Below are positions 2,666 through 21,602 of a stretch of DNA of 36,690 nucleotides, in pieces (positions within the stretch are counted from its first letter, which is position 1; each line of letters starts with the position of its first letter). The position numbers and the translations under genes are program-made. The DNA comes from Bacteroidetes bacterium RIFCSPLOWO2_12_FULL_35_15. GTDB taxonomy: Bacteria > Bacteroidota > Bacteroidia > 2-12-FULL-35-15. The notes beneath the pieces are model-generated. The model had not been told where the DNA came from and did not search any database. It worked only from the letters and a program-made list of their open reading frames with translations. The DNA lies in contig MEPB01000084.1 of NCBI GenBank assembly GCA_001769385.1, positions 790-37,479 on the forward strand, in the 5' to 3' direction.

Positions 2666-2837
2666 CTAACACCACCTAAAATAAATGCGGAGATACTGCA
2701 AGTTGCAAATGTTTGTCACAGCGGTATAAATTTATTTCTAAACATTTGCAGGGATCGGTTGTGCTTTTAATTTATATTTGTGGTAACGAATAACAGAGTG
2801 CAATTAAGTCCGCACTTCTTTTAGCTTCGTTCGTTAG
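2666..2837 (+). repeat. attC-like repeat R1 (172 bp), reference copy
   Basis: Layout of the type copy. Left arm: CTAAC (2666-2670), spacer ACCAC, CTAAAA (2676-2681), TAAA, TGCGGA (2686-2691). Centre: hairpin TGCAAATGTTT (2704-2714) with AAACATTTGCA (2740-2750), its loop holding the palindrome ATAAATTTAT (2726-2735). Then the -7-like box TATATTTG (2773-2780) with a TTTG 24 bases upstream (2745-2748). Right arm: TCCGCA (2809-2814), CTTC, TTTTAG (2819-2824), spacer CTTCGTTC, GTTAG (2833-2837). The paired arms, unequal spacers (5 and 8) and variable outer bases match the R''-L''-L'-R' plan of integron attC sites. Confidence 0.85.
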
Positions 2838-2864
2838 GTGCAACGCTTTCAGACGACAATATTT

Positions 2865-3563
2865 ATGAAAAAGATACTATTACAAATTTTCACTTTGACA
2901 ATTTTTCTAACATCGGGTGTTTCAGAAAAAGAACAAAATGCAGCTTCAAAAGTAGCTGCTCTATGGAATGCAGAGAACTCTTCAATTGGACATACTAAAA
3001 CTGCCGACACGGAAAAAGGAACCCATAATGTTATGGTTGTTACCTTAAAAAACTTAAAAACAGTTGACGACAAATACTCAAAAGACAAGATAACATCAGC
3101 TTCTGCATTGACTCTTATTGAAAATCTGAGAAAAGAAGATTATCAAGACTTTGACCAAATTAAAATTATTATTGAGAACAATTCTACTTCTTACGAAAAG
3201 ACATATGAAATAAATAAATTAGTTAATACAATTCTATTACTTAATGAAATTACTCAGTTCTTTGACTATTCGAGTACTCGTGACACATTGAATTTAAAAT
3301 CAATAATAAGTTCAAAAGACATTCCAGATTCGGGATTGATTAGTATTCTTCAAGCAAATAATCAAATAGACTCCACTTACGGAAAATTAAATCATATAAC
3401 AATCACAGGTTTTCGTTATGACCATGTTAACAAAACAAATGAACCTGCGATTGTTGCTTGGACAGATGTGTTTAACGGCAATACTTTGACAAATTATTCA
3501 TTTTATATTTCGGAAGAAAGTAAAAAAATTATTTACATCGGAATTAATGATGGAGAGAAATAA
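2865..3563 (+). CDS. Secreted hypothetical protein, first of two identical cassettes (2)
   Basis: 232 aa from ATG 2865, with an N-terminal signal peptide (MKKILLQIFTLTIFLTSGVS) and a soluble mixed alpha/beta body with no recognised domain. A GTG at 2838 would extend the frame by nine residues, but ATG 2865 places the signal peptide at the very start and is preferred. It is the only gene of its cassette, starting 28 bases after the attC end and stopping 9 bases before the next. The cassette ends with GCACCTAAC, the reverse complement of its start GTTAGGTGC. Asp codons are mostly GAC, as in many cassette genes here. I do not recognise the family. The next cassette is an exact copy. Confidence 0.75.
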   Translation: MKKILLQIFTLTIFLTSGVSEKEQNAASKVAALWNAENSSIGHTKTADTEKGTHNVMVVTLKNLKTVDDKYSKDKITSASALTLIENLRKEDYQDFDQIKIIIENNSTSYEKTYEINKLVNTILLLNEITQFFDYSSTRDTLNLKSIISSKDIPDSGLISILQANNQIDSTYGKLNHITITGFRYDHVNKTNEPAIVAWTDVFNGNTLTNYSFYISEESKKIIYIGINDGEK

Positions 3564-3572
3564 GCGCAGCAC

Positions 3573-3744
3573 CTAACACCACCTAAAATAAATGCGGAGA
3601 TACTGCAAGTTGCAAATGTTTGTCACAGCGGTATAAATTTATTTCTAAACATTTGCAGGGATCGGTTGTGCTTTTAATTTATATTTGTGGTAACGAATAA
3701 CAGAGTGCAATTAAGTCCGCACTTCTTTTAGCTTCGTTCGTTAG
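3573..3744 (+). repeat. attC-like repeat R2
   Basis: By eye identical to R1 over its whole length, consistent with a 907-bp tandem duplication of cassette plus repeat. The -7 box TATATTTG is present. Confidence 0.85.
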
Positions 3745-3771
3745 GTGCAACGCTTTCAGACGACAATATTT

Positions 3772-4470
3772 ATGAAAAAGATACTATTACAAATTTTCAC
3801 TTTGACAATTTTTCTAACATCGGGTGTTTCAGAAAAAGAACAAAATGCAGCTTCAAAAGTAGCTGCTCTATGGAATGCAGAGAACTCTTCAATTGGACAT
3901 ACTAAAACTGCCGACACGGAAAAAGGAACCCATAATGTTATGGTTGTTACCTTAAAAAACTTAAAAACAGTTGACGACAAATACTCAAAAGACAAGATAA
4001 CATCAGCTTCTGCATTGACTCTTATTGAAAATCTGAGAAAAGAAGATTATCAAGACTTTGACCAAATTAAAATTATTATTGAGAACAATTCTACTTCTTA
4101 CGAAAAGACATATGAAATAAATAAATTAGTTAATACAATTCTATTACTTAATGAAATTACTCAGTTCTTTGACTATTCGAGTACTCGTGACACATTGAAT
4201 TTAAAATCAATAATAAGTTCAAAAGACATTCCAGATTCGGGATTGATTAGTATTCTTCAAGCAAATAATCAAATAGACTCCACTTACGGAAAATTAAATC
4301 ATATAACAATCACAGGTTTTCGTTATGACCATGTTAACAAAACAAATGAACCTGCGATTGTTGCTTGGACAGATGTGTTTAACGGCAATACTTTGACAAA
4401 TTATTCATTTTATATTTCGGAAGAAAGTAAAAAAATTATTTACATCGGAATTAATGATGGAGAGAAATAA
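3772..4470 (+). CDS. Secreted hypothetical protein, second identical copy (cassette 3)
   Basis: The 232-aa translation is identical to the gene at 2865, and the nucleotide sequence is the same at an offset of 907 bases with no difference seen by eye, including the leader. It has the same signal peptide and no known domain. Perfect identity argues for a very recent duplication, either re-insertion of the same cassette or unequal exchange between repeats, or for an assembly artefact. It doubles the dose of an exported protein of unknown role. Confidence 0.72.
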   Translation: MKKILLQIFTLTIFLTSGVSEKEQNAASKVAALWNAENSSIGHTKTADTEKGTHNVMVVTLKNLKTVDDKYSKDKITSASALTLIENLRKEDYQDFDQIKIIIENNSTSYEKTYEINKLVNTILLLNEITQFFDYSSTRDTLNLKSIISSKDIPDSGLISILQANNQIDSTYGKLNHITITGFRYDHVNKTNEPAIVAWTDVFNGNTLTNYSFYISEESKKIIYIGINDGEK

Positions 4471-4479
4471 GCGCAGCAC

Positions 4480-4652
4480 CTAACACCACCTAAAATAAAT
4501 GCGGAGATACTGCAAGTTGCAAATGTTTGTCACAGCGGTATAAATTTATTTCTAAACATTTGCAGGGATCGGTTGTGCTTTTAATTTATATTTGTGGTAA
4601 CGGAAAAGCAAAGTGCAAGTAAGTCCGCACTTCTTTTAGCTTCGTTCGTTAG
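4480..4652 (+). repeat. attC-like repeat R3 (173 bp)
   Basis: Identical to R1/R2 through the central hairpin and -7 box, then switches to the other right-arm subtype (GGAAAAGCAAAGTGCAAGT in place of GAATAACAGAGTGCAATT), which is one base longer. Ends GTTAG at 4648-4652. Confidence 0.85.
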
Positions 4653-4682
4653 TGCCAATTATAAAAAAAACTTTGTAGACAA

Positions 4683-5306
4683 ATGAATTTTGGACGATTT
4701 TTTAATAAGCTTGCGATTGCAGTTATTGTAATCATAATTGTTGGTTGGCTGATAAATCTTGCGCTCCATAAACTTGAAAATAATCGCTTGGAAAAAAATG
4801 AAAGAGATGAAAAACTGGCAAAGGGAACTTGTGTTTTCGACAAAGTAGACTTAGACAGCTTAGTGATCTCCAAGTGGGAAAAGACCTTTAAACCAATCTT
4901 GAGTGTAACTGACTTTAAAAAATATTTTAATGACGAATTGCTTAACGTGAAGTTAAACGACACTTTGCAAGATGTACAAACGATTAAAATCGACAATAGT
5001 GATTTTTCATTTCATAATATTGGACAGAACATCTTTGTAAATGCAATAAATATAGACAAGACAAGCCAATTCACTTTTAATGTTAAAGAGAAATTAAACG
5101 TTACTCCCGACTACGACCTTGACAATTTTAAAGAACAATTTCCAAAATCCTTTTCGTGCAGAGAAAACGTATCAACATCGACAAAAATTGAAGAATTTGC
5201 TTTGAGACTTGACAACTCTAACAAAGCTTCTGAACTCCAGTTTATCATCCTATATTTCAATCGAGCCGACAACTTATGTCTTGTTGAATTTTATTACCAA
5301 GAATGA
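4683..5306 (+). CDS. Membrane-anchored hypothetical protein, first of two identical cassettes (4)
   Basis: 207 aa. A single N-terminal membrane segment (around residues 10-29, IAVIVIIIVGWLINLALHK) is followed by a charged stretch and a soluble domain of about 165 residues, probably facing the periplasm. There are two cysteines in the body, at KGTCVF and SFSCRE, and a third near the C-terminus in NLCLVEF. I recognise no family. Asp codons counted by hand are 13 GAC to 3 GAT, unlike the resident genes further right. The cassette starts GTTAGTGCCA and ends TGGCACTAAC, perfect reverse complements over ten bases. ATG 4683 is the natural start, 31 bases after the attC end. Confidence 0.75.
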   Translation: MNFGRFFNKLAIAVIVIIIVGWLINLALHKLENNRLEKNERDEKLAKGTCVFDKVDLDSLVISKWEKTFKPILSVTDFKKYFNDELLNVKLNDTLQDVQTIKIDNSDFSFHNIGQNIFVNAINIDKTSQFTFNVKEKLNVTPDYDLDNFKEQFPKSFSCRENVSTSTKIEEFALRLDNSNKASELQFIILYFNRADNLCLVEFYYQE

Positions 5307-5321
5307 AAAATATAACTGGCA

Positions 5322-5494
5322 CTAACACCACCTAAAATAAATGCGGAGATCCTGCAAGTTGCAAATGTTTGTCACAGCGGTATAAATTTATTTCTAAACA
5401 TTTGCAGGGATCAGTTGTGCTTTTAATTTATATTTGTGGTAACGGAAAAGCAGAGTGCAAGTAAGTCCGCACTTCTTTTAGCTTCGTTCGTTAG
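5322..5494 (+). repeat. attC-like repeat R4 (173 bp)
   Basis: Differs from R3 in the left half (GATCCTGCAAG, GGGATCAGTTG) but has the same right-arm subtype (GGAAAAGCAGAGTGCAAGT). TATATTTG box present. Ends GTTAG at 5490-5494. Confidence 0.85.
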
Positions 5495-5524
5495 TGCCAA
5501 TTATAAAAAAAACTTTGTAGACAA

Positions 5525-6148
5525 ATGAATTTTGGACGATTTTTTAATAAGCTTGCGATTGCAGTTATTGTAATCATAATTGTTGGTTGGCTGATAAATC
5601 TTGCGCTCCATAAACTTGAAAATAATCGCTTGGAAAAAAATGAAAGAGATGAAAAACTGGCAAAGGGAACTTGTGTTTTCGACAAAGTAGACTTAGACAG
5701 CTTAGTGATCTCCAAGTGGGAAAAGACCTTTAAACCAATCTTGAGTGTAACTGACTTTAAAAAATATTTTAATGACGAATTGCTTAACGTGAAGTTAAAC
5801 GACACTTTGCAAGATGTACAAACGATTAAAATCGACAATAGTGATTTTTCATTTCATAATATTGGACAGAACATCTTTGTAAATGCAATAAATATAGACA
5901 AGACAAGCCAATTCACTTTTAATGTTAAAGAGAAATTAAACGTTACTCCCGACTACGACCTTGACAATTTTAAAGAACAATTTCCAAAATCCTTTTCGTG
6001 CAGAGAAAACGTATCAACATCGACAAAAATTGAAGAATTTGCTTTGAGACTTGACAACTCTAACAAAGCTTCTGAACTCCAGTTTATCATCCTATATTTC
6101 AATCGAGCCGACAACTTATGTCTTGTTGAATTTTATTACCAAGAATGA
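5525..6148 (+). CDS. Membrane-anchored hypothetical protein, second identical copy (cassette 5)
   Basis: The translation is identical to the gene at 4683, at an offset of 842 bases, with the same leader and tail. It keeps the N-terminal membrane helix and the three cysteines. R4 and R5, which follow the two copies, share the same left half (GATCCTGCAAG, GGGATCAG), while R3, which precedes the first copy, differs. The left part of the repeat therefore travels with the gene upstream of it, as integron cassettes predict. Confidence 0.72.
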   Translation: MNFGRFFNKLAIAVIVIIIVGWLINLALHKLENNRLEKNERDEKLAKGTCVFDKVDLDSLVISKWEKTFKPILSVTDFKKYFNDELLNVKLNDTLQDVQTIKIDNSDFSFHNIGQNIFVNAINIDKTSQFTFNVKEKLNVTPDYDLDNFKEQFPKSFSCRENVSTSTKIEEFALRLDNSNKASELQFIILYFNRADNLCLVEFYYQE

Positions 6149-6163
6149 AAAATATAACTGGCA

Positions 6164-6336
6164 CTAACACCACCTAAAATAAATGCGGAGATCCTGCAAG
6201 TTGCAAATGTTTGTCACAGCGGTATAAATTTATTTCTAAACATTTGCAGGGATCAGTTGTGCTTTTAATTTATATTTGTGGTAACGGAAAAGCAGAGTGC
6301 AATTAAGTCCGCACTTCTTTTAGCTTCGTTCGTTAG
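6164..6336 (+). repeat. attC-like repeat R5 (173 bp)
   Basis: Same as R4 except GCAATTAAG in place of GCAAGTAAG in the right arm. TATATTTG box present. Ends GTTAG at 6332-6336. Confidence 0.85.
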
Positions 6337-7039: not shown

Positions 7040-7211
7040 CTAACACCACCTAAAATAAATGCGGAGCAACTGCAAGCTGCAAATGTTTGTCGCAGCGGTA
7101 TAAATTTATTTCTAAACATTTGCAGGGATCGGTTGTGCTTTTAATTTATATTTGCGGTAACGAATAACAGAGTGCAAGTAATTCCGCACTTCTTTTAGCT
7201 TCGTTCGTTAG
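7040..7211 (+). repeat. attC-like repeat R6
   Basis: 172 bp. Small changes in the left half (GAGCAACTGCAAGCTGC, GTCGCAGCGG) leave the arms paired. TATATTTG box and GAATAACAG subtype. Ends GTTAG at 7207-7211. Confidence 0.85.
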
Positions 7212-7271: not shown

Positions 7272-7886
7272 ATGACAGACCTCAGACAAATAGCAGACGA
7301 TATATACAGTAAGGAAAAAACGAATTCTCATTACGACCTTGTTGTTAATTATGAAAAATACAAAGACGTTTTAGACAAATACGACTATAACGATTCTCAA
7401 GAAAAGTATGATTTATTTTTGCAATTAAAAGCAGACTATGCAATAGCTTTAGCTGAAATCAAAAGCTACAGCAAGGCATTACCACAAATTGACAAGGCAC
7501 TCGACTTGTTTACTTCAGACAAACAATTTGACCTTGAGAAAGTATATACAATAAAATTCTACGAACTTCTTATTTGGAATCGTGGCAGAAGTAATTATTA
7601 CCTTGAGAATTATTCATTAGCCAAATCGGACTTTGAATTACTGACAAAGCAATATCCAGACAATACTATTTATAAAAAATGGCTGGTTGCAACGACCGGT
7701 ATAAAGAAAAATAAGATCAAGAATATTTTATGGTACGGCTTGGCAGGGGCTCTCCTAGTCGAATCGTTCCTAGACAAATGGGTTGTCGCTAAAAACATTT
7801 TTCTAATAGTCGGACTGCTTTGTTTAATTGCAGCAGTGGGACTTGAAATAAATATGTACTTACGAAAGAAAAAGTATGTTGCGTAG
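7272..7886 (+). CDS. TPR-like protein with C-terminal membrane hairpin (cassette 7)
   Basis: 204 aa from ATG 7272. Residues about 1-140 form helical pairs resembling tetratricopeptide repeats (ADYAIALAEIKSYSKALPQI; SNYYLENYSLAKSDFELL), a fold for protein binding. Residues about 150-195 form two membrane segments (WYGLAGALLVESFL and NIFLIVGLLCLIAAVGLEI), and the tail is basic. There is no N-terminal signal, so the TPR part probably stays in the cytoplasm, held to the inner membrane by its C-terminus. A 61-base leader separates it from the attC, longer than in other cassettes. The cassette starts GTTAGCGGT and ends ACCGCTAAC. Confidence 0.72.
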   Translation: MTDLRQIADDIYSKEKTNSHYDLVVNYEKYKDVLDKYDYNDSQEKYDLFLQLKADYAIALAEIKSYSKALPQIDKALDLFTSDKQFDLEKVYTIKFYELLIWNRGRSNYYLENYSLAKSDFELLTKQYPDNTIYKKWLVATTGIKKNKIKNILWYGLAGALLVESFLDKWVVAKNIFLIVGLLCLIAAVGLEINMYLRKKKYVA

Positions 7887-7954
7887 ACAGTTTAACAAAT
7901 GCTTCGACTTGAATACTTGCAAGACTTTTGAAAGCTAGAAGTTCAGCCTAACCG

Positions 7955-8127
7955 CTAACACTACCTAAAATAAATGCGGAGTTCCTGCAAGTTGCAAATG
8001 TTTGTCACATCGGTATAAATTTATTTCTAAACATTTGCAGGAATCGGTTGTGCTTTTAATTTATATTTGCGGTAACGGAAAAGCAGAGTGCAAGTAAATC
8101 CGCACTTCTTTTAGCTTCGTTCGTTAG
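7955..8127 (+). repeat. attC-like repeat R7 (173 bp)
   Basis: Minor changes (CTAACACTACC, GTCACATCGG, GGAATCGG). TATATTTG box and GGAAAAGCAG subtype. Ends GTTAG at 8123-8127. Confidence 0.85.
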
Positions 8128-8137
8128 CGGTAATACT

Positions 8138-8623
8138 ATGAAAGGACAGACGACAAATATTAAGTTTCATTGGTTTTCTAAATCATTACTAATTTCGCTT
8201 TTAACTTTGTTAAGTATTTTAGTTTTTGAGAATTCGACAGCGCAAACAAAAAAAAATACCAATACTACAAGTCAATCAGAAAAAGATTCAAGTAAAATTT
8301 ATGTCATGTGGGATGATTTTAGTGACATACCAACCTTCAAAGACGGTGGTGACGTAGGGATGAGAAAGTTTATAAATAATAACCTGAAATTTCCAAATGG
8401 CTTAAAGTCTAGCGGAAAAGTTTATTTAAGTTTTACGGTCGACACTTTAGGAAACGTAAAAGACGCAATAATTTTAAAAGGTCACACTAAAGAGACGGAC
8501 GAAGAAGCGTTAAGAGTAGTTAATCTACTTAAATTTATTCCAGCAAAAAGACAAGGTAAATTAATAGAAACAAAAGTTAACTTGCCAATTAGTTTTACGG
8601 TGACTGACGACAAGCAAAAATAA
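8138..8623 (+). CDS. TonB C-terminal domain protein (cassette 8)
   Basis: 161 aa from ATG 8138. A signal or anchor segment (about residues 14-36, SKSLLISLLTLLSILVFENS) and a short linker precede a TonB C-terminal domain (about 65-155) with the features FINNNLKFP, GKVYLSFTVDTLGNVKDA, DEEALRVVNLLKFIPAKRQG and VNLPISFTV. In TonB this fold contacts outer-membrane receptors in energy transfer; here it is stand-alone and periplasmic, as in many Bacteroidota genes of unknown partner. Two resident paralogues occur at 26236 and 26661. The cassette starts GTTAGCGGTA and ends TACCGCTAAC. The start is 10 bases after the attC. Confidence 0.82.
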   Translation: MKGQTTNIKFHWFSKSLLISLLTLLSILVFENSTAQTKKNTNTTSQSEKDSSKIYVMWDDFSDIPTFKDGGDVGMRKFINNNLKFPNGLKSSGKVYLSFTVDTLGNVKDAIILKGHTKETDEEALRVVNLLKFIPAKRQGKLIETKVNLPISFTVTDDKQK

Positions 8624-8642
8624 TTTTAATAAAGTACTACCG

Positions 8643-8814
8643 CTAACATCACCTAAAATAAATGCGGAGCAAGTGCAAGATGCAAATGTTTGTCACAGTG
8701 GTATAAATTTATTTCTAAACATTTGCAATGAAGTTTTGTGCTTTTAATTTACATTTGTGGGAACGGAAAGCAGAGTGCAAGTAAATCCGCACTTCTTTTA
8801 GCTTCGTTCGTTAG
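8643..8814 (+). repeat. attC-like repeat R8, the most diverged in the centre
   Basis: 172 bp. Changes include CTAACATCACC, GAGCAAGTGCAAGATGC and AATGAAGTTTTGTGC, yet the central stem survives and the -7 box remains within consensus as TACATTTG. Ends GTTAG at 8810-8814. Confidence 0.82.
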
Positions 8815-8837
8815 GCGTCATTTTAAAACAGAACCCT

Positions 8838-9329
8838 TTGAAACCACAATATTACATATTGACACTAGTTTTTTTGACAACGGCTTTTTCCTGCGACCGA
8901 ATAAAACGCAAGACAGAAGAGATTGTTGACAATGCAAAAGACAATATCATTTCGCATTACGACTCTAAAATACCCGACACAAAATGGAACAAAAAGCGGT
9001 TTGACGAATTCTTTCACTTTGCTCCGACCTCGGATGTAAAGAACATATATTGCTTCGCAGATGAAATAGCGTTTGACCATACCTACATGTTTTCATTTAA
9101 TTGCAATATGACAACTCTTTATAAAATTATTTCAGAACTTGAACTGGTACAGGCAGACAGTCCAGACAATTCCAGTGAAGGCATACAGCAAGACTTTGAT
9201 TGGTGGGACAAAGAAAAACTAAAAAATTTGACGCCTTATTGCAAAAAGGAGGACGAGCACCGAACATATTGGTATTTATGGTACGACATGACAGACAAGA
9301 AAGCGTATTATATCGAATTTGATATGTAA
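8838..9329 (+). CDS. Lipoprotein, hypothetical, with TTG start (cassette 9)
   Basis: 163 aa. TTG at 8838 is the only start that gives a complete lipoprotein signal peptide (KPQYYILTLVFLTTAFSC, lipobox TAFSC, Cys about residue 19). The next in-frame ATG is far inside. The mature part is acidic and rich in aromatics (FDWWDKEKL, YWYLWYDM), with no family I recognise. It should sit on the periplasmic or surface side of a membrane by its lipid. The cassette starts GTTAGGCGT and ends ACGCCTAAC. Asp is mainly GAC. Confidence 0.7.
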   Translation: MKPQYYILTLVFLTTAFSCDRIKRKTEEIVDNAKDNIISHYDSKIPDTKWNKKRFDEFFHFAPTSDVKNIYCFADEIAFDHTYMFSFNCNMTTLYKIISELELVQADSPDNSSEGIQQDFDWWDKEKLKNLTPYCKKEDEHRTYWYLWYDMTDKKAYYIEFDM

Positions 9330-9342
9330 AAAAAACGAACGC

Positions 9343-9514
9343 CTAACACCACCTAAAATAAATGCGGAGTTCCTGCAAGTTGCAAATGTTTGTCACAGCG
9401 GTATAAATTTATTTCTAAACATTTGCAGGGATCAGTAGTGCTTTTAATTTATATTTGCGGTAACGAATAACAGAGTGCAAGTAAGTCCGCACTTCTTTTA
9501 GCTTCGTTCGTTAG
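9343..9514 (+). repeat. attC-like repeat R9
   Basis: 172 bp, with GATCAGTAGTGC in place of GATCGGTTGTGC. TATATTTG box and GAATAACAG subtype. Ends GTTAG at 9510-9514. Confidence 0.85.
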
Positions 9515-9542
9515 TAGCAAGCTTAAAAAAAAATGACAAACC

Positions 9543-10085
9543 ATGTTAGCAGACAAAATAGACAGACCTTTAGCTGGACAATTTTCTGAAATACATTTTG
9601 GGATTGTAACACCAGACAATCTTTGGGTGAAATTTTTAGACAGCCAATATCAAGAATGGGTTGGTTCATTTGCTAACGGGTGGAATAAAAAGGCGACCTA
9701 TATTTTTAATTTTCATAAAAGCGAAAAAGCAATTGTAGTTGCTGGTGGTATTGGCTATTTTGTTGATATTTCAACGCGACAATTACTTAATGAAGACAAC
9801 TTAATTGATATTAGTTTTGCTATAGAGGATACCGAACGTAACAGAATTATTTTTTCAAACGGACTCGACCTCCGAACATTTAATTTAAATAATCAAGAAA
9901 CTATTCTTTTTGACGAATACTATTTTGACGACATTGAAAAATTAGAAATAAAGGAGGACAAACTTTTTGTTGAATATCATAATTATCAAAGCAAAACAAA
10001 TCCCTTTATTTTTGAAATGAATCTTGTGACAAATGAAAAACACGACACATTTTTTGGAGAGAATAAATCGAAAAACATAAAATAA
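9543..10085 (+). CDS. Hypothetical cytoplasmic protein (cassette 10)
   Basis: 180 aa from ATG 9543. There is no signal peptide or membrane segment, so it is one of the few cassette products likely to stay in the cytoplasm. The sequence is beta-rich with repeated aromatic/hydrophobic strands (GIVTPDNLWVKF, KAIVVAGGIGYFVDI, RIIFSNGLDLRTFNL), which could be a small propeller-like or barrel-like fold; no family is recognised. Another ATG at 9533 is in a different, short frame. The cassette starts GTTAGTAGC and ends GCTACTAAC. Confidence 0.68.
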   Translation: MLADKIDRPLAGQFSEIHFGIVTPDNLWVKFLDSQYQEWVGSFANGWNKKATYIFNFHKSEKAIVVAGGIGYFVDISTRQLLNEDNLIDISFAIEDTERNRIIFSNGLDLRTFNLNNQETILFDEYYFDDIEKLEIKEDKLFVEYHNYQSKTNPFIFEMNLVTNEKHDTFFGENKSKNIK

Positions 10086-10099
10086 AGAAAAGCCAGCTA

Positions 10100-10271
10100 C
10101 TAACACCACCTAAAATAAATGCGGAGATACTGCAAGTTGCAAATGTTTGTCACAGCGGTATAAATTTATTTCTAAACATTTGCAGGGATCGGTTGTGCTT
10201 TTAATTTATATTTGTGGTAACGAACAAGTGAGTGCAAGTAAGTCCGCACTTCTTTTAGCTTCGTTCGTTAG
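10100..10271 (+). repeat. attC-like repeat R10
   Basis: 172 bp. The right arm carries a third variant (CGAACAAGTGAGTGCAAGT). TATATTTG box present. Ends GTTAG at 10267-10271. Confidence 0.85.
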
Positions 10272-11326: not shown

Positions 11327-11498
11327 CTAACACCACCTAAAATAAATGCGGAGTTCCTGCAAGTTGCAAATGTTTGTCACAGCGGTATAAATTTATTTCT
11401 AAACATTTGCAGGGATCAGTTGTGCTTTTAATTTATATTTGTGGTAACGAATAACAGAGTGCAATTAAGTCCGCACTTCTTTTAGCTTCGTTCGTTAG
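11327..11498 (+). repeat. attC-like repeat R11
   Basis: 172 bp, with GAGTTCCTGCAAG and GGGATCAGTTG. TATATTTG box and GAATAACAG subtype. Ends GTTAG at 11494-11498. Confidence 0.85.
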
Positions 11499-12759: not shown

Positions 12760-12931
12760 CTAACACCACCTAAAATAAATGCGGAGATACTGCAAGTTGC
12801 AAATGTTTGTCACAGCGGTATAAATTTATTTCTAAACATTTGCAGGGATCAGTTGTGCTTTTAATTTATATTTGCGGTAACGAATAACAGAGTGCAAGTA
12901 AGTCCGCACTTCTTTTAGCTTCGTTCGTTAT
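12760..12931 (+). repeat. attC-like repeat R12
   Basis: 172 bp, ending GTTAT (12927-12931) rather than GTTAG because the next cassette start is TTATAGCC. TATATTTG box and GAATAACAG subtype. IS copy 2 begins 16 bases further on. Confidence 0.85.
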
Positions 12932-12947
12932 AGCCAATTTTATGCAC

Positions 12948-14472
12948 TGCATCGTCCTGAAATAGGTTGACTAAAAATTAAACACTTTTAGCCAACTATG
13001 ACAACACAGAAAAAATCACCCTGCCGAAAAAAGGAGTATCAGAAAATTAGTTTTGATCTCAAACTTTCCATCATTGATCAAATTAAAAACGGACAAATTT
13101 CAGTAAATCACGCTGCGAAGGTTCATCAAATTTCTCGCAGTTCAATTACTTATTGGATGAAAAAATTATGTTCCTTTGAACAAAATAATAAAGCCATGAA
13201 CAAGAATGAAGAATTAAAAAAACTCAAAGAAAAAATTGAGGAACTAGAATTCATTAAAGACTTACAGCAAGATATTATTGCTGATTTAGAAGTAACCACC
13301 GGGCAAGAGCTTGCAAAAAAGTTATTGCCCGAAACATTAGCAAAAGAGATAGAGAAAAAGAAACGAGACCTTACAAAATAAAATGGCTCTATCAGTGTTT
13401 CGGGGTATCTAAACAAGCGTATTACAAGCGTATTAAAGTCAGTAATCAAAAGGAGTTGCAAACGATAATGATAAAAGAAATTATAAAGCCAGTTAGAAAT
13501 ATAATGCCAAAATATGGTGGCAATAAATTATATCTTAAAATCAAAAATGATTTAATAAAACAGAATGTTGATATTGGAAGAGATCGTTTTTTTAAACTCC
13601 TGAGAGAAAACCATTTGTTGATTAAAAAAACAAAAAGATACCATATAACAACGGACTCTAAACACTTTTTTTATACATCTCCAAACCGTATTAAAGACCT
13701 TGATATAACTCACTCAGAACAGGTCTTGGTAAATGATATTACCTACATCAAACTTCAGTCACAACACGCATACCTTGCCTTGACTACTGATGCGTATTCC
13801 AAAAAAGTTATGGGTTGGAATATCGATACAAATATGAAAGTGGAATTAGTGAAAGGGGCATTACAAATGGCTTTAAAAAACAGAACATACGATCATAAAA
13901 ACATAATCTATCATAGCGATAGAGGCATTCAATACTGCTGCCCGGACTTCACTGATTTTGCACAAAAAAAAGGAATGGTTCTTAGCACAACTCAAAAATC
14001 AGATCCTTATGAAAATGCCATAGCTGAAAGAATAAACGGAATATTAAAATATGAGTTTGGCTTAATAAATACGTTACCAAACCTTGAAGTAGCAACTAAA
14101 ATGGTTAAGCAAGCAGTGGATATTTATAACAACGAAAGAATACACTACAGCCTGGAAATGAATACACCAGAGTTTGCTCATGCCAACCAAACTCATAAAT
14201 ATAAATCCTACAAGAAAAATTATAATGAAAAAAATAATTTACATTTGAATCATCAAGTCAAAACGGAAACAAGCTCTGCTGGAGAGCAACTTGTTAGGGA
14301 TACGCTTGATGAACGACAAAAATGTCAAATCAATGGGAAATCAACCCGATAGCCCATTGATATTTTTAGAGTTCTTGATGCCTAAAAAAACTCACACAAA
14401 GAAAATTTAATACAATGACAAATTCAATTATTATTTAAACAAAAAAGAGTCAACCTATATCAGGACAAGACA
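12948..14472 (+). mobile_element. IS3-family insertion sequence, copy 2 (1525 bp)
   Basis: Same length, ends and gene layout as copy 1, but diverged at many positions (right end ACCTATATCAGG against ACCTATTTCAGG). Flanks are CAC on the left and AAA on the right, so there is no target duplication. The interrupted cassette has non-matching ends (start GTTATAGCC, end GCACCTAAC), which suggests that the left and right flanks come from different cassettes. Confidence 0.88.
12998..14352 (+). CDS. IS3-family transposase OrfAB, copy 2 (programmed -1 frameshift)
   Basis: OrfA runs from 12998 to 13381 (127 aa) with the same helix-turn-helix and coiled coil. The slippery heptamer A AAA AAG is at 13315-13321, and the -1 frame is open from there to 14352, giving a fusion of about 451 aa. 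Catalytic residues are kept (VLVNDITYI, IIYHSDRGIQ, DPYENAIAERING). The residue two before the first motif's Asn is Leu here and Trp in copy 1. The C-terminus differs slightly from copy 1 because the stop is later. Both reading frames look intact. Confidence 0.87.
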
Positions 14473-14927: not shown

Positions 14928-15099
14928 CTAACACTACCTAAAATAAATGCGGAGCAAGTGCAAGATGCAAATGTTTGTCACAGCGGTATAAATTTATTTC
15001 TAAACATTTGCAGGGATCGGTTGTGCTTTTAATTTATATTTGCGGTATCGAATAAAATAGTGCAATTAAGTCCGTCCTTCTTTTAGCTTCGTTCGTTAG
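14928..15099 (+). repeat. attC-like repeat R13
   Basis: 172 bp. The right arm is altered (TCCGTC in place of TCCGCA, ATCGAATAAAATAGTG), so pairing with TGCGGA is weaker. TATATTTG box present. Ends GTTAG at 15095-15099. Confidence 0.82.
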
Positions 15100-17617: not shown

Positions 17618-17790
17618 ATAACACCACCTAAAATAAATGCGGAGTTCCTGCAAGTTGCAAATGTTTGTCACAGCGGTATAAATTTATTTCTAAACATTTG
17701 CAGGAATCGGTTGTGCTTTTAATTTATATTTGTGGTAACGGAAAAGCAGAGTGCAAGTAAGTCCGCACTTCTTTTAGCTTCGTTCGTTAG
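17618..17790 (+). repeat. attC-like repeat R14 (173 bp)
   Basis: Begins ATAAC (17618-17622) rather than CTAAC. GGAAAAGCAG subtype, TATATTTG box. Ends GTTAG at 17786-17790. Confidence 0.85.
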
Positions 17791-18709: not shown

Positions 18710-18882
18710 CTAACACCACCTAAAATAAATGCGGAGATACTGCAAGTTGCAAATGTTTGTCACAGCGGTATAAATTTATTTCTAAACATTTGCAGGGATC
18801 GGTTGTGCTTTTAATTTATATTTGCGGTAACGGAAAGGCAGAGTGCAAGTAAATCCGAACCTCGCTTAGCTTTGTACGTTAG
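18710..18882 (+). repeat. attC-like repeat R15 with decayed right arm
   Basis: 173 bp. The left half and TATATTTG box are intact, but the right arm reads TCCGAACCTCGCTTAGC and TTTGTACGTTAG in place of TCCGCACTTCTTTTAGC and TTCGTTCGTTAG, weakening the stem. Ends GTTAG at 18878-18882. Confidence 0.82.
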
Positions 18883-19951: not shown

Positions 19952-20122
19952 ATAACACCACCTAAAATAAATGCGGAAATTGTGCAAGTTGCAAATGTTT
20001 GTCACAGCGGTATAAATTTATTTCTAAACATTTGCAGGGATCGGTTGTGCTTTTAATTTATATTTGTGGTAGCGAATAACAGAGTGCAATTAATCCGCAC
20101 TTCTTTTAGTTTCGTTCGTTAT
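19952..20122 (+). repeat. attC-like repeat R16
   Basis: 171 bp, beginning ATAAC and ending GTTAT (20118-20122). Left arm GCGGAAATTGTGCAAG; right arm has lost two bases (AATTAATCCGCAC). TATATTTG box present, followed by GTAGCGAATAACAG. Confidence 0.82.
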
Positions 20123-21515: not shown

Positions 21516-21526
21516 GCATACTACGC

Positions 21527-21602
21527 ATAACATAAAAGATGCAATACCTTTGTCGACACGCTAAAAAGCCCAATGCGCGGCAATCGCATATTTAGCCGTT
21601 AG
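21527..21602 (+). repeat. Terminal attC-like site of a different, shorter type (76 bp)
   Basis: Starts ATAAC right after the cassette 17 end and closes with GTTAG (21598-21602). Inner pairs are TAAA/TTTA (21533-21536 with 21591-21594), ATGC/GCAT (21539-21542 with 21586-21589) and TTGTCG/CGGCAA (21550-21555 with 21578-21583). It shares no obvious sequence with the 172-bp repeats and lacks the TATATTTG box, but it has the same box plan and the length of a classical attC. It marks the right end of the array. Confidence 0.7.

Follow-up and report, generated by a model that had tools for sequence, protein, structure and literature searches.

The question raised by this locus is whether a recombination site can also act as the promoter of the gene that follows it. 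In the textbook integron the cassettes are promoterless and are silent when they lie far from Pc. The window analysed here (36,690 nucleotides; contig C84:790-37479 of a 5.39 Mb genome in 110 contigs, the named near relatives of which are uncultured Bacteroidetes/Chitinophagaceae MAGs) has its left 21.6 kb filled by a cassette array. The original prediction was that every long attC-like repeat of this array carries an outward -7 box and so offers a promoter to the next cassette.

The array contains 17 long repeats, 16 of them complete, alternating with mostly one-gene cassettes that all run in the same direction; genome-wide there are about 41 strong copies on five contigs. On sequence grounds the array is integron-like and chromosomal, and its long repeats are genuine attCs, because their cassette ends are complementary and their arms covary. 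In 13 of 16 cassettes the bases after the GTTA of one repeat are complementary to those before the TAACA of the next, in runs of 7-9 bases (4.75 of 6 for cognate ends versus 2.72 for non-cognate ends), so that the G^TTRRRY crossover is accompanied by mutually complementary cassette ends. The imperfect palindromic arms (R''L''/L'R') show compensatory changes in 12 of 16 pairs between species (0/500 shuffles), and the arm helix has a covariation score of 0.384 compared with 0.167 in shuffled sequences (0/500 shuffles). An Rfam search gave no match. The array resembles CALIN and chromosomal integron cassette arrays (IntegronFinder 2.0, PMC9024848) in its attC sites, its co-directional one-gene cassettes and its complementary cassette ends; it differs from them in the length of its attCs (~170 nt), in the lack of a canonical IntI in the genus, and in being headed by a recombinase without the IntI-specific domain.

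Some other features of the array were recorded. Two whole cassettes are tandemly duplicated (2838-4470, with a 241-aa gene, and 4651-6165, with a 207-aa gene), and since the copies are practically identical the duplication looks recent. Two related IS3-family-like insertion sequences (orfA/orfB) lie at 149-1494 and 12998-14352, each shortly after an attC, and the cassette with the second copy has ends that are no longer complementary. The array closes with a short attC of another type (about 80 nt, 21523-21602, plus strand, read by eye), which has neither the long loop nor a TAnnTTTG. The letters TACGCATAA at its left end complement TTATGCGTA at 20119 (by eye).

It was found that every long attC carries the box as predicted: TAYATTTG has a constant position in the 16 complete repeats, and the partial one has it there too. 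All lie on the plus strand. The partial attC at the window edge (1-81; the rest of the repeat is in contig C84:672-871) has its box, TATATTTG, at 18-25. In the first complete repeat, R1 (2666-2836), a TTTG at 2745-2748 precedes the box TATATTTG at 2773-2780 by exactly the 24 nt that had been noted. The other complete repeats, with their boxes in brackets, are 3573-3743 (3680-3687), 4480-4651 (4587-4594), 5322-5493 (5429-5436), 6164-6335 (6271-6278), 7040-7210 (7147-7154), 7955-8126 (8062-8069), R8 at 8643-8813 (8750-8757), 9343-9513 (9450-9457), 10100-10270 (10207-10214), 11327-11497 (11434-11441), 12760-12930 (12867-12874; an insertion sequence copy is next), 14928-15098 (15035-15042), 17618-17789 (17725-17732), 18710-18881 (18817-18824) and 19952-20121 (20059-20066). 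The box reads TATATTTG in all long repeats except R8, where it is TACATTTG, and it points towards the next cassette gene; both details agree with the original prediction. The predicted distance of 60-100 bases to the start codon proved slightly too narrow, being mostly 54-123 nt with a median of about 85.

The window holds 21 TAYATTTG matches compared with 6.4 ± 2.1 in shuffles, and only four of them fall outside attCs (1391, 14240, 15407 and 22878). The chance of meeting TAnnTTTG in a single shuffled repeat is P = 0.18, and that of meeting TATATTTG is P = 0.015; since the attC copies are homologous, the 17 boxes amount to a single event. Genome-wide, TAnnTTTG is present in 50 of 53 scorable attC matches (46 with TATATTTG, three with TACATTTG, one with TATTTTTG; three are without), and the attCs of the genome contain 52 forward boxes and 3 reverse ones. 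The box had also been said to persist where nearby bases vary. Within the genome this part of the claim has little force: 49 of the 163 eight-base windows of the attC equal the box in invariance, and conservation there is uninformative because whole repeats are near-identical. The box may be a part of one attC subtype that is passive or serves recombination and starts no transcription, for example one copied along by cassette duplication or homogenisation. We give this explanation clearly less than an even chance; the roughly 95% identity of the long attC copies over their whole length and the two cassettes duplicated intact speak for it.

A comparison across the genus bears on this point. Homologous DNA is present in 22 of its 36 genomes, and 75 attCs outside the window's genome, from 40 regions, could be scored. 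TAnnTTTG occurs at the homologous place in 22 of them; the other 53 lack it and mostly have TTTAATAAAGTTT instead. The two forms coexist in several species, sometimes in one genome. When box-bearing attCs from nine species (45-82% identity) were compared, no other 15-mer was as well conserved as TTTAATTTATATTTG, although the subtype is partly defined by the box and the conservation rank is inflated for six of the box columns. Mean identity is 0.92 in the box columns, compared with 0.48 in the spacer before and 0.51 in the stretch after; over these eight columns box-less attCs reach a mean of 0.65, which is rank 101 of 180. When the attCs were classified blindly by their flanks only, 19 of the 26 A-like sites proved to have the box, as did 3 of the 45 B-like ones. 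The claim of persistence, weak within the genome, is thus strong in the comparison of species, for one subtype of attC. As a general property of attCs the box is not supported, since the majority of sister-species attCs are without it.

Base pairing does not explain this conservation, as far as covariation can tell. The helix that would pair the box scores 0.085, compared with 0.082 in shuffled sequences, and a single-sequence fold in which the box is kept by pairing with the L'' arm was rejected for this lack of covariation. The box is thus an unpaired island in one subtype and is absent from the other. Since the other subtype has no -7 match at those columns, the box is dispensable for the existence of an attC, yet in one subtype or lineage it is kept, unpaired. 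Box-less attCs contain one TAnnTTTG in all, against 7.6 ± 3.0 expected from shuffles. These results weigh against a passive box: between species it outlasts its flanks, no pairing holds it, and recombination in the other subtype manages without it. A variant of the same explanation, in which the box is kept as something that the recombinase or a host factor reads in TTTAATTTATATTTG, gains from the hexamer TTTAAT just before the box, which is conserved in both subtypes and suggests a role of this stretch unrelated to a -7 element.

Several other readings of these segments were rejected. Matches covering only positions 33-121 of the query were considered as promoter units outside attCs and turned out to be attCs with divergent arms. 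The idea that the attC's right half encodes an N-terminal extension, from a GTG behind the box (MVTEKQ...), was dismissed by eye, because one-base length variants give in-frame stops in many copies. As an alternative -7 element of box-less attCs, TAAAGTTT failed, being enriched in neither G035 nor G000. As separate observations, the attC loops of the genus (L075-L114) look mosaic, with differing terminal hairpins joined to a box-bearing or a box-less segment, and in other Bacteroidia families outward TAnnTTTG boxes (TATATTTG, TAAATTTG) occur in some, not all, attCs (L219, G063:C6, near 8720 and 15948; L214, G128:C5, attC 7841-7913).

We then consider whether the box is the -7 element of the host itself. 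In Flavobacterium psychrophilum TAnnTTTG spans -12 to -5 (PMC9723704), and the attC box matches this Bacteroidota sigma-A consensus exactly, as had been predicted. The motif is also native to this genome. Across 800 kb of other, unrelated DNA of this genome, the 80 nt upstream of ATGs contain TAnnTTTG 88 times in forward and 22 times in reverse orientation; the corresponding counts are 12 and 0 for TATATTTG and 7 and 2 for TACATTTG. Distances in this survey are approximate, gene starts having been set by a simple longest-ORF rule. Single-base variants mostly have no strand bias, and TAnnTTCG is biased more weakly (31 versus 14). The sister species G035 gives 68 forward and 15 reverse. The forward bias before ATGs in both genomes therefore marks TAnnTTTG as a native -7 element. 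Exact identity with it, together with the useful orientation, further opposes a passive box.

The surroundings are less favourable. The native partner of TAnnTTTG is a TTG with a peak at 19-20 nt upstream, and no -33 TTG at this spacing is present in the attC; its only upstream TTG lies at 24 nt, a position fixed by the TTGC arm of the hairpin. The native forward excess is limited to 0-60 nt from the ATG, and the attC boxes, at about 85 nt, lie outside this range. The attC box thus differs from the Bacteroidota sigma-A promoters of PMC9723704 in the missing, correctly spaced -33 TTG and in its greater distance from the start codon, and both departures count in favour of a passive box. Forward and reverse native boxes could not be told apart by the sequence that surrounds them (AUC 0.51); therefore only the 8-mer speaks for a promoter, and a promoter score built on these surroundings was dropped for lack of power. 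A scan for sigma-70-type promoters showed no excess (67 versus 71.6), and terminator-like matches in the attCs are on the minus strand only.

Taken as a weak, -7-only promoter, the attC box is plausible, with about an even chance of being one. The proposed cassette promoter is favoured by the native -7 match, the orientation and the conservation in the subtype, and is disfavoured by the absence of a -33 at native spacing and by the distance to the ATG. In the subtype concerned, the box lies in the loop that separates the terminal hairpin from the L' arm, and TATATTTG is the -7 element of the housekeeping sigma factor in this lineage of Bacteroidota. We infer that RNA polymerase most likely binds the box as a weak, -7-only promoter and may initiate about 5 nt after it. 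The transcript would begin with an untranslated leader, about 50-115 nt long, that spans the right half of the attC, and would then enter the gene of the next cassette, the expression of which may be raised. Any cassette would thus bring, at its 3' end, a promoter for the one inserted behind it. The attC is nearly the sole place for such a promoter, because cassette leaders (from attC to ATG) are short, with a median of 19.5 nt, and another TAnnTTTG is found in only 2 of 38. Leader promoters occur in 6 of 37 cassettes after box-less attCs versus 4 of 57, which is no clear compensation for the missing box; this counts against the promoter, as does the absence of the box from 53 of the 75 attCs of relatives.

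There are precedents in Vibrio. In Vibrio sp. DAT722 a sigma-70-type promoter bridging an attC raised a transcript about 40-fold (PMC2945992), which is similar in that the cassette behind an attC is transcribed from a promoter located there, independently of Pc; there it is one site at one junction, whereas here a -7 element recurs at a fixed attC position throughout a subtype. In a gene-less Vibrio cassette (F2), 5' RACE mapped transcription starts within the attC (PMC11014356), again a case of transcription from within an attC; unlike here, those are individual gene-less cassettes, and the promoter is no conserved component of the attC and has a different consensus. Cassette-borne promoters have been reviewed (PMC8876359). 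That cassette promoters free genes from Pc is therefore already known from Vibrio (PMC2945992, PMC11014356), and novelty would be confined to a promoter that is built into the attC and spread over a whole subtype. In the literature searched, mostly open-access papers, neither a promoter element as a fixed part of a family of attCs nor an attC promoter in Bacteroidota was found.

The array heads suggest another source of transcription. No integron integrase above the TIGR02249 cut-off (265 bits) was found in the 36 genomes of the genus or in 6 others; the array recombinases score 188-220 bits. One of them is a 547-aa tyrosine recombinase at G000:C93:1453-3093 (on the minus strand of L044, G000:C93:1-12000), whose best NCBIfam family is NF040815, 'XerA / integron integrase', and whose closest solved structure is V. 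cholerae IntI4. The additional IntI-specific domain around patch III was not found: the profile match stops at about 179 and resumes at 239, and residues 178-246 of IntI4 (69 aa) face only 26 aa of this recombinase, so the domain is missing. Downstream on the same strand are higBA-like genes, an attI-like segment, a cassette and, where the contig ends, an attC of the same type as in the window, of which only the first half is present (L044 6-96). Similar heads were found in G034:C44 and G031:C43 within the genus and in G063:C6 and G128:C5 outside it. At all five, the two ends of the first cassette, next to attI, are complementary by eye (TTACGCGC/GCGCGTAA; TTATGCGT/ACGCATAA; TTATAAGT/ACTTATAA; TTGCCAGCA/TGCTGGCAA; TTGGCGGTA/TACCGCCAA). 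Seven of 8 genomes with the long recombinase have attCs compared with 7 of 28 without it (hypergeometric P ~0.003, by hand). This recombinase probably moves the cassettes. The IntI-specific domain is stated to be needed for integron recombination (PMC9668308, PMC8138268), and movement by an enzyme without it would therefore be a real departure. In the same genus, L192 (G017:C32:152001-168000) has at about 7996-9737 a 359 aa recombinase without the IntI domain, divergent from the adjacent attC, which is the classical integron orientation.

The array could be expressed mainly by long transcripts that enter at such a head, started by the recombinase promoter or by a Pc close to attI, or that come from adjacent cassettes, with the attC boxes contributing little. 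We consider this possible, at well under an even chance. The recombinase gene points into the array just before attI, in this genome and in relatives; TATATTTG boxes also lie between recombinase and attI in G010 and G029; and arrays of box-less attCs must get expressed somehow. Against it, the more than 40 attCs spread over five contigs would, by analogy with other integrons, be too far for one transcript.

Joining the two lines, we tentatively propose, as somewhat less probable than the promoter itself, that there are integron-like platforms in Bacteroidota, with a Xer/IntI-type recombinase that lacks the IntI-specific domain, lies directly before attI and is transcribed towards the array, together with one attC lineage that has a built-in -7 promoter. 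If these arrays are served by a recombinase without a supposedly necessary domain, the definition of an integron would become wider. The promoter role is directly testable on the box-bearing and box-less attC subtypes that occur in nature. If the attC does carry the promoter core of the host, a large array could be expressed everywhere, and the promoter would be shuffled together with the 3' end of the previous cassette. Should the joint platform reading be true, recombination site and promoter would travel as one part, and expression would be independent of the position in the array.
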